Translations under genes and position numbers: made by a program
NCBI GenBank assembly: GCA_009777935.1
Contig: WRKU01000009.1
Location: 1-50,944 of the forward strand
Direction: 5' to 3'
DNA: 50,944 nucleotides
DNA from: Coriobacteriia bacterium
GTDB taxonomy: Bacteria; Actinomycetota; Coriobacteriia; WRKU01
Notes under the pieces: model-generated
What the model was told of the DNA's origin: nothing
Seen by the model: only the letters and a program-made list of their open reading frames with translations
The model's database searches: none
Shown here: positions 1-50,944 of the stretch, piece after piece
Layout of the letters: every line of letters begins with the position of its first letter
Position numbering within the stretch: position 1 is the first letter of the stretch

Positions 1-15
1 GTGGTTATCGTTCAT
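1..15 (-). CDS. Start of a leftward surface-protein paralogue (partial)
   Basis: Only the first five codons (ATG at 15, reading MNDNH) are inside the window. The 30 bases here are the reverse complement of 50830-50859, which start the third surface-protein copy at the right end, and the upstream 100 bp match the promoter regions of that family. An SD-like GAGGG lies 5 nt before the ATG. The gene body, and any G tract after codon 8, lies to the left of the window. That it is another phase-variable paralogue is inferred from the identical start. Confidence 0.6.
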
Positions 16-61
16 GTGTGCCCTCATTTCATAGAAAAACGTACTTGATTAACTATCCTCT

Positions 62-90
62 AGTATTCCCTCTGCGCGTCGCTTGCGCAA
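62..90 (-). promoter_or_regulatory. Promoter of the leftward surface-protein gene
   Basis: On the - strand, -35 TTGCGC (85-90) and -10 AATACT (62-67) are 17 bp apart. The same layout with near-identical sequence occurs at 48309-48337 and 50738-50766. A long G tract lies 18 bp upstream of the -35. Confidence 0.7.
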
Positions 91-108
91 CCAAAAGCCG
101 CAAAATTG

Positions 109-121
109 CCCCCCCCCCCCC
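109..121 (-). repeat. Homopolymer tract (13 G on the - strand) upstream of a promoter
   Basis: Thirteen C on the + strand, that is G13 in the sense of the leftward gene. It ends 18 bp before the -35 hexamer. Equivalent tracts occur at 48280-48289 and 50703-50718 at 19 bp from their -35 boxes. Slippage here could change transcription strength; that is inference. Confidence 0.8.
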
Positions 122-45641: not shown

Positions 45642-45717
45642 TTGCTACACTAAAAAAGGTAGTTACGAGCTAGTCAACATAACGCGACATGCGTTTTTTG
45701 CATGAAATGAGGGCAAC

Positions 45718-47842
45718 ATGAGCACAATTGAGAAAACCACACGGGGGGGGGGGGCCATCGCAAAATAGCGTAGAGCCCTCTTCTACGGATACTAACGCGG
45801 CACCAAAAAGTCGCAAGCGTCAAAACACCACCATAGCTATCATAGTTGCACTGCTCCTCCTCCTGCTGGGTGCATTCGCCTGGGGTACGATGCAACGCGC
45901 CATCAATCAGTTTGCCAGTCTAAATACACCACGAGCAGTACTACACGATGAATTCAGGCGAATCGATGCGGCTGAGTGGCAAAAGAGAGTATGGATACAA
46001 AATAGTGGCAACTCACCTTTCATAGCACGCATATCCGCATCTGAGTTTATGCAATGGATTGAAAGTGAGAACTGGGATAGAGGACGCAACATCATAGAAG
46101 GTATTCCTTTTGCTCCTCCCATACCTGAAGCTATAGAGACTACCTTAACTCCCACCCTTGATACAAGCACCTGGGGCGTAGATGGCACTCTTATCGATAC
46201 TCAGACTGCTTGGTTTAACGTCACCCCTGACATGTGGTCGATACGAGGCCTTACTGACTCAGCAAGCCTTACCCAAGCAGCTCCTGCACGTGGACACGCA
46301 GCAGACGGCACTCCTTTCAGTCAGTACTGGGAGTGGGACTCAGATCACCTAACATATAGCGAGTGGACAGCACTCCCTCTCTCACAGCGTTCAAACAAGT
46401 GGGTGTTAGCTGACGATGGCTTTTTCTACTACACATCCGTCATCAGACCCGAGACTAATACGCTTCCCTTAATGACGGGAGTATCTGCCGCCACCGGCTT
46501 TGATCCGCTCAAGCATGCGTTTTACTATGCTATCGACATCCAGATGGAGGTCGTCACCCAAGATGATGTGGGTGCTATGAAAGACGGCACTGTCCCTAGC
46601 AGCGGTACCGATGGCGTGCCTCTTCGTGCTGCATCAACACAAGGTAAGGCTATCCTGGACAGCATTAACTGGACCGCACCCATTATCGGAGGCTTGAGCA
46701 TCAATGGCATCGAGGGCCTTGAGATAACCGTCTCTCAAGGTACACCGGTCACCCTCGAAGTCGATGCCGGTGGCGACCCTAACCTCACCTACCTATGGCA
46801 GACCACTAACTCACCCTGGAACGATGCTCCGGGTACTAACGACGAGACCGAATACATCGTAGACACTACCACCCCGGGCACCTTCGAGTTTAGAGTCCTT
46901 GTCTCTAACTCAGGCAATACACCCGTAGAAAACGACGGACACACCACCATTTCAGATACGATTACCGTAAAGATAGAGCCGTTGCCGCCCACACCGGTCA
47001 CCCCGACGCGTCGTGACTTTGGCCCGGTACAGTTCTTCCGGATAGCTGAGACAACAGTCGGCGGGGTTACCTATGACCTGCTCGTGACACGCTATGTCTA
47101 TGGCTCTAATCCCACGGCAGCTTGGGCGTACGTACAGTTCAATGAGGCGGGTCAGGGTAACTTCTGGCTGACGACTGAGGCCGGCACTGCCAAGTCCGCC
47201 GTTATGGCTGGTATGGACACCTGGTATAACAGTCTTACCGGAGCAGGCCTCGATTCTGGTACCAATAACCTTAAATCGCTTGCGGTGCAGGCCGACTTCA
47301 CCGGCAGCAATACAGGTGCGGGCTCAACACGCACCTTTGGCACCGAGGGCCTGACGGGTCATCCCGACGTGCGCGCTTTGGCAGGCACCACGAATGCTGA
47401 TGTGGCCGCAAACATCGCCTGGATGCAAAATCCGGAAAACTACCCGGAGGCGATCTCGACACCATCGAGCAGAGCAGCAGCGAGTGCCACTTCATCGCCG
47501 AGTACGGGTCAAGGTATCGTGGCATTCCCGCTGTCGGGCAAAGAGATACTGAGCTACTTCACCAATATTGGAACCGGTACTGCTACCGGACCAAGTGTGC
47601 TGGCACCGCTAGCTCATGGTATCGGTGCCAATCACGCTGAGACAACGACAGCGCGCTATTGGTGGTCACGTTCGCGTGGTAGCGCTGCCTCTTTGGCGGG
47701 CTACGTGGCTGTCAATGGTACTGTGCACGGGTCGTGGGGTTACCTGTACAACAATGGTACGTGGGACGGTCCCGATGGTGCTACGATTACTCATACCGAT
47801 TTCGGTCTGCGCCCCGCTCTCTGGGTGAGGCAGGCGCCGTAG
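45718..47842 (+). CDS. Phase-variable surface protein 1 (frame OFF as read)
   Basis: The ATG at 45718 with a good SD (GAGGG) is followed by eight codons and then G12. In this frame translation stops at TAG after 16 codons. With 11 (or 14) G the frame joins an open frame to 47842, giving about 707 residues. The long product has a membrane segment at about 37-55 (IAIIVALLLLLLGAFAW) and then a camelysin/TasA-like part: VLHDEFRRIDAAEW, QKRVWIQNSGNSPFIARIS, and LADDGFFYYTSVIRP. An Ig-like domain follows, and a DUF6273-like C-terminus with WWSRSRGS and FGLRPALWV. TTG at 45728 is already in the long frame but is 15 nt from the SD. Probably exported and exposed on the cell surface; a SipW-type signal is an inference. 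Confidence 0.75.
45743..45754 (+). repeat. G12 contingency tract in surface gene 1
   Basis: Twelve G following CAC, beginning 25 nt after the A of the ATG. One G fewer restores the long frame. Confidence 0.9.
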
Positions 47843-47870
47843 AGGAGGCATCTGCTACACTAGCCAACGC
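47842..47870 (+). repeat. Conserved 29-bp segment after surface genes (copy 1)
   Basis: The same 29 bp occur at 50590-50618, directly after surface gene 2. It begins at or next to the stop codon, so it is part of the unit that was duplicated. Confidence 0.85.
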
Positions 47871-47892
47871 GGCTGCAAGGCTGTAGGAATGA

Positions 47893-48060
47893 GTTACGGC
47901 GCGGCTGAGCAAGTGGTTTTCCGCCGCTCAGTGGCAACACCAGTGGCTGCGGTCTCCGGGTACGACTGCCGCTCAGGCGGCTTACGTGACCAGCAATGGG
48001 ACCGTGACGGGCGGTACTGCCACCAATGCGCTCGGCGTGCGTCCAGACTTACCCGCATGA
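47893..48060 (+). pseudogene. Remnant of a DUF6273-like C-terminus
   Basis: An open frame of 55 codons ending at TGA 48058-48060 and bounded upstream by TGA at 47890. It reads WLRSPGTTAAQAAYVTSNGT and, near the end, NALGVRPDLPA, which corresponds to the DUF6273 end of the intact genes (WWSRSRGS, then FGLRPALWV). No start codon or N-terminal part is present, so it looks like the tail of a lost paralogue or a recombination cassette. Confidence 0.6.
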
Positions 48061-48081
48061 CCCTTCCATGTGAAGTGGACT

Positions 48082-48234
48082 ATGCTAGGGAGTGCGTGTC
48101 AAGTGACACGTAGAGAGCAGGTAAGGGAACTCATATCCTTTCGCGTAGTGCTCGCACAGGGCGCCGGCGAAAAAGGGAAACGCACAGGCTCGGGTGGTCG
48201 CTACGTGTATCGTCTGAGCCTGCGCACATTCTGA
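48082..48234 (+). CDS. Small ORF of unknown function, possibly a gene fragment
   Basis: A 50-codon frame from ATG 48082 (MLGSACQVTRREQVREL at the start, GSGGRYVYRLSLRTF at the end). The basic C-terminus resembles the end of a winged-helix domain, but this is too short to assign. There is no good SD. The last few bases belong to the repeated block shared with 50651 onward. It may be debris between the surface genes. Confidence 0.25.
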   Translation: MLGSACQVTRREQVRELISFRVVLAQGAGEKGKRTGSGGRYVYRLSLRTF

Positions 48235-48279
48235 GTCGAATATATTCACTGACCTGACCTTTTCTGCGCGCCAGCGCCT

Positions 48280-48289
48280 GGGGGGGGGG
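48280..48289 (+). repeat. G10 tract upstream of a promoter
   Basis: Ten G ending 19 bp before the -35 at 48309. It belongs to the same class as the tracts at 109-121 and 50703-50718. Confidence 0.85.
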
Positions 48290-48308
48290 CGATTTTCGCA
48301 TATCTAGG

Positions 48309-48337
48309 TTGCGCAGGCGTGGCGCAGAGGGTATACT
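48309..48337 (+). promoter_or_regulatory. Promoter of surface gene 2
   Basis: -35 TTGCGC (48309-48314), 17 bp, -10 TATACT (48332-48337). About 46 nt later comes the ATG at 48383. The leader GTACGTTTTTCTATGAAATG is shared with the leftward copy at the window start. Confidence 0.75.
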
Positions 48338-48382
48338 AAAGAGTAGCTAATCAAGTACGTTTTTCTATGAAATGAGGGCAAA

Positions 48383-50585
48383 ATGAGCACAATTGAGAAA
48401 ACCACACGGGGGGGGGGGGCCATCGCAAAATAGCGTAGAGCTCTCTTCTACGCGCGCTATCAGTGGCGCAAATCCTACTTCTAACACTACGAATACACCT
48501 CGTACTCGCAAACGTCAAAACACCACCATAGCCATCATAGTTGCCCTACTCTTACTCCTTCTGGGAGCTTTTGCGTGGGGCACCATGCAGCGTGCCATCA
48601 ATCAATTCATGAGCGATAGTGCACCACGTGCCGTACTTCACGACGAATTCAGACGTCTTGATGCTGCCGAGTGGCAAAAGAGAGTATGGGTACAAAACTC
48701 AGGCAACTCACCCTTCATAGCACGCATTTCAGCGGCCGAATTCATGCAATGGATTGAAAGTGAAGACTGGACGCGCGGGCGTAACATCATAGAAGGTATT
48801 CCTTTTGCTGACCCCATTCCGGCAGCTATCGAGACTACTCTTACTCCCACCCTTGATTCAGGCACCTGGGGAGTCGATGGTACTCTCATTGACACCCAAA
48901 CAGCCTGGTTTAATGTCACCGCCGACATGTGGTCTATTCGCGGTCTGACTGACCCGACTAGCCTCACGCAAGCTGCTCCAGCACGCGGACATGCAGCTGA
49001 CGGCACGCCTTTCAGCGAGTATTGGAGCTGGACTCAGCCTCATCTGTTGACCTATGCGCAGTGGCAGACTAACTACACCACCAATCCTTCGGCCAACCTC
49101 GACAAATGGGTGCTTGCCGATGACGGCTACTTCTACTACACCTCCGTTATCCGTCCGGGCGATGCCGATAACGCAAGTCTGCCTTTAATAACCGGCGTGT
49201 TTGCCGCCACCGGCTTCGACCCGCTCAAGCATGCCTTCTACTATGCTATCGACATTCAGATGGAGGTCGTGACCCAAGATGATGTGGGTGCTATGAAAGA
49301 CGGCCTCGTACCTAGCAGTGGCACCGATGGTGTACCTCTTCGTGCAGCTAGCGCGCAAGGTAAAGCTATCCTTGATTCGATTAACTGGAGTTCAGGTCCT
49401 TCCATCGGCGGCTTTAGCATCACCATAAACGGCATCTCTGAAGATGTCAGCAATACTAATCGCACCGTCACTGTGGCTCAAGATGCAAGCCTTACCTTTG
49501 AGGTCAACGCCATCCATCCTACTGGCGGTACCCTCTACTACCAGTGGCAGTTAGAGAACTCTTGGACCGACATCTCTGGTGCCACCAACGCAACCTACAG
49601 TCCACCGACCACCACAGCAGGCTCGGAGAACTATCGCGTACTGGTGTCAACTGAAAGTGACCCGGCAGAGCGCGATGCAAGCAACACGACCGTCTCTGCC
49701 GTTATTACGGTAGAGGTAGAACGACTTCCTGGCATCGGTGGCGATCCTATCGTGATAGGCTCACCGCAGCGTGTCGTTATCGACGGCATCCCGTTTTGGC
49801 GCATCGCTAGTGATGGCGACTATGACCTGATCGTGACCCAATACGTCTACGGCACCAACCCAGCCGTTGACTTTATCGGCAGCGGGGGACCTGTCTTTAA
49901 CACATCGGGAGGTGGCAGCTACTGGCTTTCTAACAGTTCCTCTGGCTCAAGCCCCTCTAACGTATCAAACCTACAGCAAGCGACGGACACGTGGTGGAAT
50001 GCGCTAAGTCCTGCTACGCATCCGGACCTTAACGCATATGCCATCCAAGCTGACTTTGGTAATGCCAGCGGCATCATCACCGGTGTGGTCACAAGTCGCA
50101 ACTTTGGAGTTGAGACCGGCCTTACCACGAATAACGCCGGAAGTATTGCAAACGTGAACTTTACGACCTTCCCACAGGCCCAGTCAAAACCATCGAGCCC
50201 CGTGCGTGCAGCTGCTGCGAACACTACCTCGACAACGGCCGGTCAAGGTATCGTGGCCTTTGCCCTTTCAGGCACTGAGGTAGTGCGTTATTTCCCCAAT
50301 ACCGCTACGGGAGGTAGTGGCGTTGCGACAACAACAACCGACAGCGCACTAGGCCGCATTGGCCGCGGAGCCGGAGCAAATCACGCAGGCACGACGACAG
50401 CCCGCGGTTGGTGGACGCGCTCGCGTGGTGGCTCTGCCACTACGGCGGCCGACGTCTGGACCGATGGTGGTGTGAACGGGTCATGGGGTGACGTGCGCGG
50501 CAATGGCGCGTGGGGCGCTCCCACTGGCGCTTCGCTTACTGGTACCGCTTACGGTCTGCGCCCCGCCCTGTGGGTCAGACGGTGA
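48383..50585 (+). CDS. Phase-variable surface protein 2 (frame OFF as read)
   Basis: The same start as gene 1: SD GAGGG, ATG, eight codons, then G12, with the ATG frame ending at TAG after 16 codons. With 11 G the frame would read through to 50585, giving about 733 residues. The N-terminal 300 residues are closely similar to gene 1 (membrane segment at about 49-67, LHDEFRRLDAAEW, VWVQNSGNSPFIARIS, LADDGYFYYTSVIRPGD). The Ig-like part and the DUF6273-like end (GWWTRSRGGSATTAADVW, YGLRPALWVRR) have diverged more. Surface exposure is inferred from the membrane segment and the domain style. No LPxTG sorting signal is present. Confidence 0.75.
48408..48419 (+). repeat. G12 contingency tract in surface gene 2
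   Basis: Twelve G at the same codon position as in gene 1, and within identical flanks (CCACAC before, CCATCGCAAAATAGCG after). Confidence 0.9.
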
Positions 50586-50589
50586 CGCC

Positions 50590-50618
50590 GAGGAGGCATC
50601 TGCTACACTAGCCAACGC
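50590..50618 (+). repeat. Conserved 29-bp segment after surface genes (copy 2)
   Basis: Identical to 47842-47870. Further on, 50651-50702 is similar to 48229-48279, so the spacer between genes is also repeated. Confidence 0.85.
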
Positions 50619-50702
50619 AGCTGCTACACGCACCATCCGGGCCTTTGCATATTCTGAGTCGAATATATTCACTGAACAGCCCTTTTGTACGCGCTAGCGC
50701 CT

Positions 50703-50718
50703 GGGGGGGGGTGGGGGG
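50703..50718 (+). repeat. Interrupted G tract (G9-T-G6) upstream of a promoter
   Basis: The tract ends 19 bp before the -35 at 50738. The T interruption would be expected to lower slippage compared with a pure run. Confidence 0.85.
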
Positions 50719-50737
50719 ACAATTTCGCGGCTTTTGG

Positions 50738-50766
50738 TTGCGCAGGCGTGGCGCAGAGGGTATACT
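50738..50766 (+). promoter_or_regulatory. Promoter of the third surface gene
   Basis: -35 TTGCGC (50738-50743), 17 bp, -10 TATACT (50761-50766). The leader after it differs from the others until GAAATGAGGGCACAC. Confidence 0.75.
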
Positions 50767-50844
50767 AAAGATAGCAACTTATGTGACATGACATGTTATC
50801 TTTGCGTGGCATCTGCGACGCACGAGCACGAAATGAGGGCACAC

Positions 50845-50944
50845 ATGAACGATAACCACACCCTGCGGGGGGGGGGGGTCTCCACTTTTTGAGGGGGAGC
50901 GGCCCCCTACTGAGCCCATTACCGGCCGCGTTACCGGCCCCGAT
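50845..50944 (+). CDS. Phase-variable surface protein 3 (partial, frame OFF as read)
   Basis: ATG at 50845 after SD GAGGG reads MNDNHTLRGGGVSTF and stops at TGA. G12 starts at 50867. With 11 G the frame stays open to the window end (SPLFEGERPPTEPITG and on). The first codons equal those of the leftward gene at the window start and differ from copies 1 and 2. The rest lies beyond the window, so its domains are unknown. Confidence 0.6.
50867..50878 (+). repeat. G12 contingency tract in surface gene 3
   Basis: Twelve G starting 22 nt after the ATG. It has the same effect on frame as the tracts at 45743 and 48408. Confidence 0.9.

Follow-up and report, generated by a model that had tools for sequence, protein, structure and literature searches.

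A family of putative surface proteins in an uncultured gut-type actinobacterium of the class Coriobacteriia is very probably phase-varied through replication slippage at a guanine tract inside the reading frame. The window that we analysed is a whole contig of 50,944 nucleotides, and both of its ends fall inside members of this family. It belongs to a source genome (G000) of 1.1 Mb in 21 contigs that is 86% complete, a draft bin that breaks at family genes. Long G runs are strongly enriched in the window, with 20 overlapping G9 words where 0.16 were expected, a count reached in none of 100 shuffles. These homopolymers are thus longer than chance, and they are placed where the gain or loss of a single base shifts the reading frame. 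That the genes form a contingency-locus family had been proposed in a first-pass annotation of this DNA. The proposal is now supported by the variation of tract length among paralogs, one of which is joined in frame, by the constraint on the bodies of OFF copies and by a parallel family elsewhere in the order.

Three family genes lie at the right-hand end of the window on the forward strand. In gene 1, a Shine-Dalgarno sequence GAGGG (45709-45713) precedes an OFF-state ORF (45718-45768) that runs from the ATG at 45718 through a G12 tract (45743-45754) to a TAG at 45766, after 16 codons. The body follows directly as 695 open codons (45755-47842), is backed by profile matches and dN/dS, and encodes in order a basic cytoplasmic leader, a SipW-type signal/transmembrane segment, an ectodomain, an Ig-like region and a DUF6273-like C-terminus, which includes a hypervariable, VR-like region (47651-47824). 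Gene 2 has a promoter-like TTGCGC-17-TATACT (48309-48337), GAGGG at 48374-48378, an OFF-state ORF of 16 codons (48383-48433; ATG at 48383, TAG at 48431), a G12 tract at 48408-48419 and a body of 721 open codons (48420-50585). The latter exceeds the Pfam cut-off for DUF6273 if the C-terminal part is scanned alone, and its VR-like region spans 50400-50573. Gene 3 repeats the promoter-like TTGCGC-17-TATACT (50738-50766) and GAGGG (50835-50839), followed by an OFF-state ORF of 15 codons with the second class of N-terminus (50845-50892; ATG at 50845, TGA at 50890) and a G12 tract (50867-50878), after which 22 codons of the body (50879-50944) are visible before the contig end cuts it.

The tract thus consists of exactly 12 G from codon 9 in each gene, behind the same Shine-Dalgarno sequence and ATG, and the ATG frames stop shortly past it, as the annotation had described. 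Its long out-of-register frame is confirmed for genes 1 and 2 and can be seen in gene 3 for the 22 codons only. In genes 1 and 2 the ATG frame runs on into the body at 11 G (or 8 or 14), as had also been noted, and it does so in gene 3 by equal arithmetic; the joined proteins would read R-GGG-PSQNSVEPSSTD or R-GGG-SPLSEVEPPSTD across the tract. The earlier account was incomplete: it mentioned neither a fourth copy nor the extent of the family across the genome, and it did not note that the C-terminus is hypervariable. The fourth family gene start lies on the reverse strand at the other end of the window (1-121), with its ATG at 15-13, a G13 run (109-121) upstream of its promoter and a coding tract that would fall past the contig end. 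Two further intergenic runs were observed on the forward strand, a G10 (48280-48289) upstream of the gene 2 promoter and a G9-T-G6 (50703-50718, the G9 being 50703-50711) upstream of that of gene 3. Runs of this second type, which are 9-13 G long and precede the −35 of family promoters by about 20 nt, were found in the window and also at L065, L085 and L086. They may tune transcription.

The family extends over the whole genome, where the gene 2 protein used as a query had 37 matches. We found 42 tracts of at least 8 G in G000. Reading the surroundings of each tract assigned 24 to family gene starts, seven to intergenic sites upstream of family promoters and 11 to other places, mostly less than 250 nt from contig ends. 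The N-termini fall into two main classes, MSTIEKTTR-GGG (class A) and MNDNHTLR-GGG (class B), both behind a GAAATGAGGGC leader, and GAAATGAGGGC-N2-5-ATG is common to about 20 family starts. These include L062, one of seven tract-free paralogs with a start codon in the body frame, which begins MKPEKLTGSAG and has the same Shine-Dalgarno and ATG context in frame. An eighth tract-free match, L072 (16321-17577), is only weakly related. Relatives were not found in GTDB genome contigs (query P0002), nor was a second strain, and no member of the family was found in viral contigs or phages. By aspartokinase, the nearest named genomes are the MAGs Lab288P3bin21 (Coriobacteriia, 71%) and Emb289P3bin53 (68%), whose series we take to be from termite guts.

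Tract lengths were compared over the 14 loci at which Shine-Dalgarno/leader, ATG, tract and body are all present. Eleven of these carry 12 G, and one each carries 10, 11 and 13 G; outlying lengths at L061, L079:20 and L069 sit near contig ends and are unreliable. The joining length is 11 (or 8 or 14) everywhere except at L073, which needs 12 because the neighbouring base is G, not T. Only the 11-G copy, L083, is ON, as an uninterrupted ORF of 774 aa, and the other 13 are OFF. The annotation's statement that all three genes are OFF therefore stands for the window and fails for the genome. With equally likely registers, one or no ON copy in 14 has a probability of 0.027, so the lengths are biased to OFF rather than randomised. 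Such a bias would arise if mutation settled at an equilibrium near 12 G, or if selection favoured a mostly OFF state. At one further site (L066:15810-15821), a G12 junction has a left flank of intergenic type and a right flank of coding body, with promoter, Shine-Dalgarno sequence and ATG missing, and could reflect either recombination between G tracts or chimeric assembly.

Among 14 genomes of the order, G000 counted, eight have guanine tracts of at least 10 G. In one of these (G009), an unrelated family of signal-peptide surface proteins (MTARTPKSHGGGG-LSRKPKLALLLAAILLLALPFIAAANS; L250-L262) has the same coding-tract layout with 10-14 G. Its four ON copies have tracts of 12, 13, 14 and 14 G, and its six OFF copies have 14, 13, 14, 12, 13 and 10 G, so that ON and OFF lengths are both present among the paralogs of either genome. 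Homologs of the window family in a second genome (G008; L097, L099, L100) have no coding tract; runs of 11, 11 and 12 G precede their starts by about 300 bp. Together, the unrelated family in G009 and the upstream tracts in G008 show that the design recurs in the order in unrelated genes. In a third genome (G005; L264, L267, L268, L269), G12 tracts are followed at four places by a similar short sequence with TGTAACAA and ATT.

In the slippage model, ribosomes starting at the ATG of a 12-G copy would halt after 15-16 codons, leaving the gene OFF. Slippage within a population would give daughter tracts of 11 G (or 8 or 14), which would join the ATG to a body of 600-850 codons and turn the gene ON. 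The ON product would carry the SipW-type signal/transmembrane segment, ectodomain, Ig-like region and DUF6273-like C-terminus. The coding tract would sit just ahead of the export signal: it precedes a TIAIIVALLLLLLGAFAW segment that resembles a SipW-type signal, and a SipW-type peptidase is encoded in the genome (TIGR02228, over cut-off). The proteins of the family are therefore predicted to be exported and exposed at the surface, and they may have a role in recognition or avoidance. Because the tract lies before the exported part, the mature protein should stay unaltered by tract length. With roughly two dozen starts, most of them at 12 G, few copies are expected per cell and many combinations per population.

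Could the bodies be reached without any change in the DNA? Programmed frameshifting or transcript slippage might read the 12-G copies at a constant low level. One register does dominate, with 12 G and the body in +1, as a fixed slippery site would look, and transcription can slip on G runs. However, the 10-G copy would need the opposite shift and the 11-G copy none, while the G009 family ranges from 10 to 14 G and includes genuine ON copies. As no single ribosomal frameshift fits 10, 11 and 12 G alike, we consider constant frameshifting unlikely. A start elsewhere, with the tract as a mere glycine-coding stretch, is highly improbable. Several class A copies do have a body-frame TTG before the tract (45728 and 48393 in genes 1 and 2), but it is badly spaced, about 14 nt from the Shine-Dalgarno sequence, and other class A copies have CTG in its place. 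In class B, no ATG, GTG or TTG precedes the tract in the body frame, and the GTG that a few of these copies have after it lacks a Shine-Dalgarno sequence. Moreover, the tract-free L062 begins at ATG in the same Shine-Dalgarno context. Body-frame alternative starts were rejected on these grounds.

The remaining doubts concern whether the OFF lengths are real and whether the OFF copies are alive. The annotation had left room for a uniform homopolymer miscall, in which the real length is 11 G, all copies are ON and the assembly added one G to each. The predominance of 12 G and the obvious errors at contig ends near tracts would agree with this, yet interior tracts give 10, 11, 12 and 13 G, a shared error should not leave L083 at 11, and an independent genome (G009) has its own four ON and six OFF copies. 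Judged from the assembled paralogs, a uniform miscall is very unlikely, as the lengths are not uniform. There is also very little to be said for OFF copies as decaying pseudogenes, despite 13 of 14 complete loci being out of frame and the further copy without promoter, Shine-Dalgarno sequence and ATG (C4:26809-26820). The bodies are long and free of internal stops, and pairwise ectodomain dN/dS has a median of 0.10 and a maximum of 0.33 (55 pairs; median dS of 1.35), on which basis decay was rejected. Such strong purifying selection implies that OFF bodies are expressed sometimes, and with the high dS it shows that these are old copies which stay constrained despite their shifted frame. The 93-nt block of leader, ATG and tract is 96% identical between genes 1 and 2, whereas even the least diverged ectodomain pairs have a dS of about 0.7-0.8. 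This suggests that the 5′ end of family genes is held alike by constraint or gene conversion.

The slippage switch, which we prefer to these alternatives, would act at one end of genes that are also variable at the other. Over the C-terminal ~55 codons (RxWW...GLRPALW), variation recurs at set positions and leaves the third base unchanged: codon column 96, for instance, contains TAC, CTC, CGC, GAC, AGC and AAC, while all codons in column 120 are NNT. The third-base minority fraction in the hypervariable codons is 0.30, below the 0.42 of positions 1 and 2. In the remainder of these proteins the order is reversed, and the third base varies most (0.43-0.49; p = 8 × 10−9 versus the VR). This pattern fits adenine-directed mutagenesis of AAY codons and is not expected from ordinary divergence or gene conversion. 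The C-terminus shows the codon signature that diversity-generating retroelements (DGRs) leave, which indicates a second layer of diversification. As to a possible C-type lectin fold of the VR, DUF6273 was the only match, no PDB match was obtained and a two-sequence AlphaFold model had a pLDDT of 31.

A DGR-type reverse transcriptase (RT) with motifs LGNQSSQ and YMDD is encoded on another contig (C10; L106 2395-3528, reverse strand). Its best PDB match is 8ub7 (E-value of 3.8 × 10−23), which we take to be the RT of the Bordetella phage DGR, and it matches 115 phage records, Bordetella and Faecalibacterium phages among them. An adjoining ORF of 165 aa (locus L106:2395-4037, reverse strand) has a weak match to Avd (NF033474, E-value of 0.0056, 17 bits versus a cut-off of 80). 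No template repeat was found next to the RT and Avd-like genes, and a single all-adenine template beside the RT was accordingly rejected. No DGR RT was found in the 13 other genomes of the order.

Template-like sequences were found elsewhere. Directly 3′ of gene 1 lies a structured, DGR template-like RNA element (47856-48250, forward strand), with a TGCTACACTAG promoter-like site (TGCTACACT), a 121-nt VR-like core (within 47920-48046), a covarying hairpin and a terminal hairpin. It had no Rfam match. The core has 12 dispersed non-coding copies in the genome (in the window and at L154, L156, L068, L155, L157, L074, L077 and L080) and two coding copies (L120, L121). Each coding copy forms the C-terminus of a gene that is truncated at a contig end, and the L121 gene (L068) is a member of the window family, with 44% identity to the window proteins. 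As a set, the cores are adenine-biased, with variation in 20 of 23 A-majority columns versus five of 41 G columns, and by majority base the flanks are not. Common to the elements are TGNTACACTAG, which lies 178-192 nt upstream, a long-range helix of 11 bp and a strong hairpin at the terminus, and three neighbouring pairs of the covarying hairpin are altered on both sides in five of 11 element sequences. By these features, the dispersed elements resemble self-transcribed template RNAs.

The template-like elements differ from one another, which counts against a simple reading. In the best template/target pairs, nine of 14 and 11 of 20 mismatches are at template adenines, and none reaches 75%. 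The element 3′ of gene 1 was rejected as a direct template for the window genes, as its core is of the short VR type seen in L120 and L121, not of their long VR. No non-coding copy of the long VR, which would be the cognate template, was found in the assembly, from which about 14% of the genome is missing. The action of a DGR on the window genes is therefore deduced from the codon signature and the shared protein family, not from a matched template. We infer that the agent of C-terminal diversification may be a DGR acting in trans.

Among known systems, the window switch appears closest to the pilus switch of Bifidobacterium breve UCC2003. As set out in the sections of that report on loci bbr_0113 and bbr_1889, the reference state is OFF, a change of −1+3n turns the genes ON and replication slippage was measured (PMC9187656). 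Both cases involve an actinobacterial surface protein and a Shine-Dalgarno sequence, ATG, short ORF, coding G tract and out-of-frame body. They differ in that the B. breve sections concern two pilus loci, whereas here the switch is predicted from sequence for a SipW/DUF6273-type family with about two dozen starts; they also describe no C-terminal hypervariable region such as the one found here (PMC9187656). The contingency genes of Campylobacter, Helicobacter and Neisseria, as covered in the relevant parts of three papers, similarly have long G/C tracts in or near surface-structure genes, including intergenic tracts, with ON/OFF switching; unlike in those genera, a single paralogous family dominates here, with most copies at one OFF length (PMC8355987, PMC2823697, PMC5084427). 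The ectodomain weakly matches the SipW-dependent BsaA family (TIGR04090; 26.4 and 25.4 bits, below the cut-off of 60), and the SipW-type peptidase (TIGR02228) is present as for that family, but our proteins have additional Ig-like and DUF6273-like parts. We regard the switch as a convincing new example of an established mechanism, and its scale as unusually large.

The LGNQSSQ of the RT agrees with the DGR RT motif (I/V/L)GxxxSQ (PMC3521204), and its YMDD with YxDD. The RT motifs and the adenine-biased repeat shared with target C-termini are as in known DGRs, for which targets reached in trans are described (PMC8144416, PMC3521204, PMC10907252); the weakly matching Avd-like neighbour would be a further common feature. 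Unlike in those, the template-like elements here are multiple, dispersed and away from the RT. Template/variable repeat pairs usually have at least about 75% of their mismatches at template adenines (PMC8144416), whereas no pair reaches this value here and the window family's own template is absent from the assembly. Tentatively, we suggest that one family may combine two programmed diversity generators: the G tract at the start would determine the choice of copies to be made, and hypermutation of the C-terminal domain by a DGR would set binding. A dozen dispersed, self-transcribed template RNAs, some beside target genes, would then supply a single RT/Avd pair. No combination of a DGR with homopolymer phase variation was found in the literature searched, which was judged mostly on titles and abstracts. 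As far as that literature shows, the pairing of a G-tract switch with a DGR-type hypervariable end is undescribed, which makes the locus worth following up.

Within this order of Coriobacteriia, unrelated surface proteins have probably come under G-tract switches more than once, and the ON, OFF and tract-free loci provide natural controls. Studies usually treat phase variation and DGR hypermutation separately; if the combined reading is true, both mechanisms could be compared inside one gene. A gut-type bacterium with a small genome could then hold a large reserve of binding surfaces, of which few would be exposed at once and which would be renewable.
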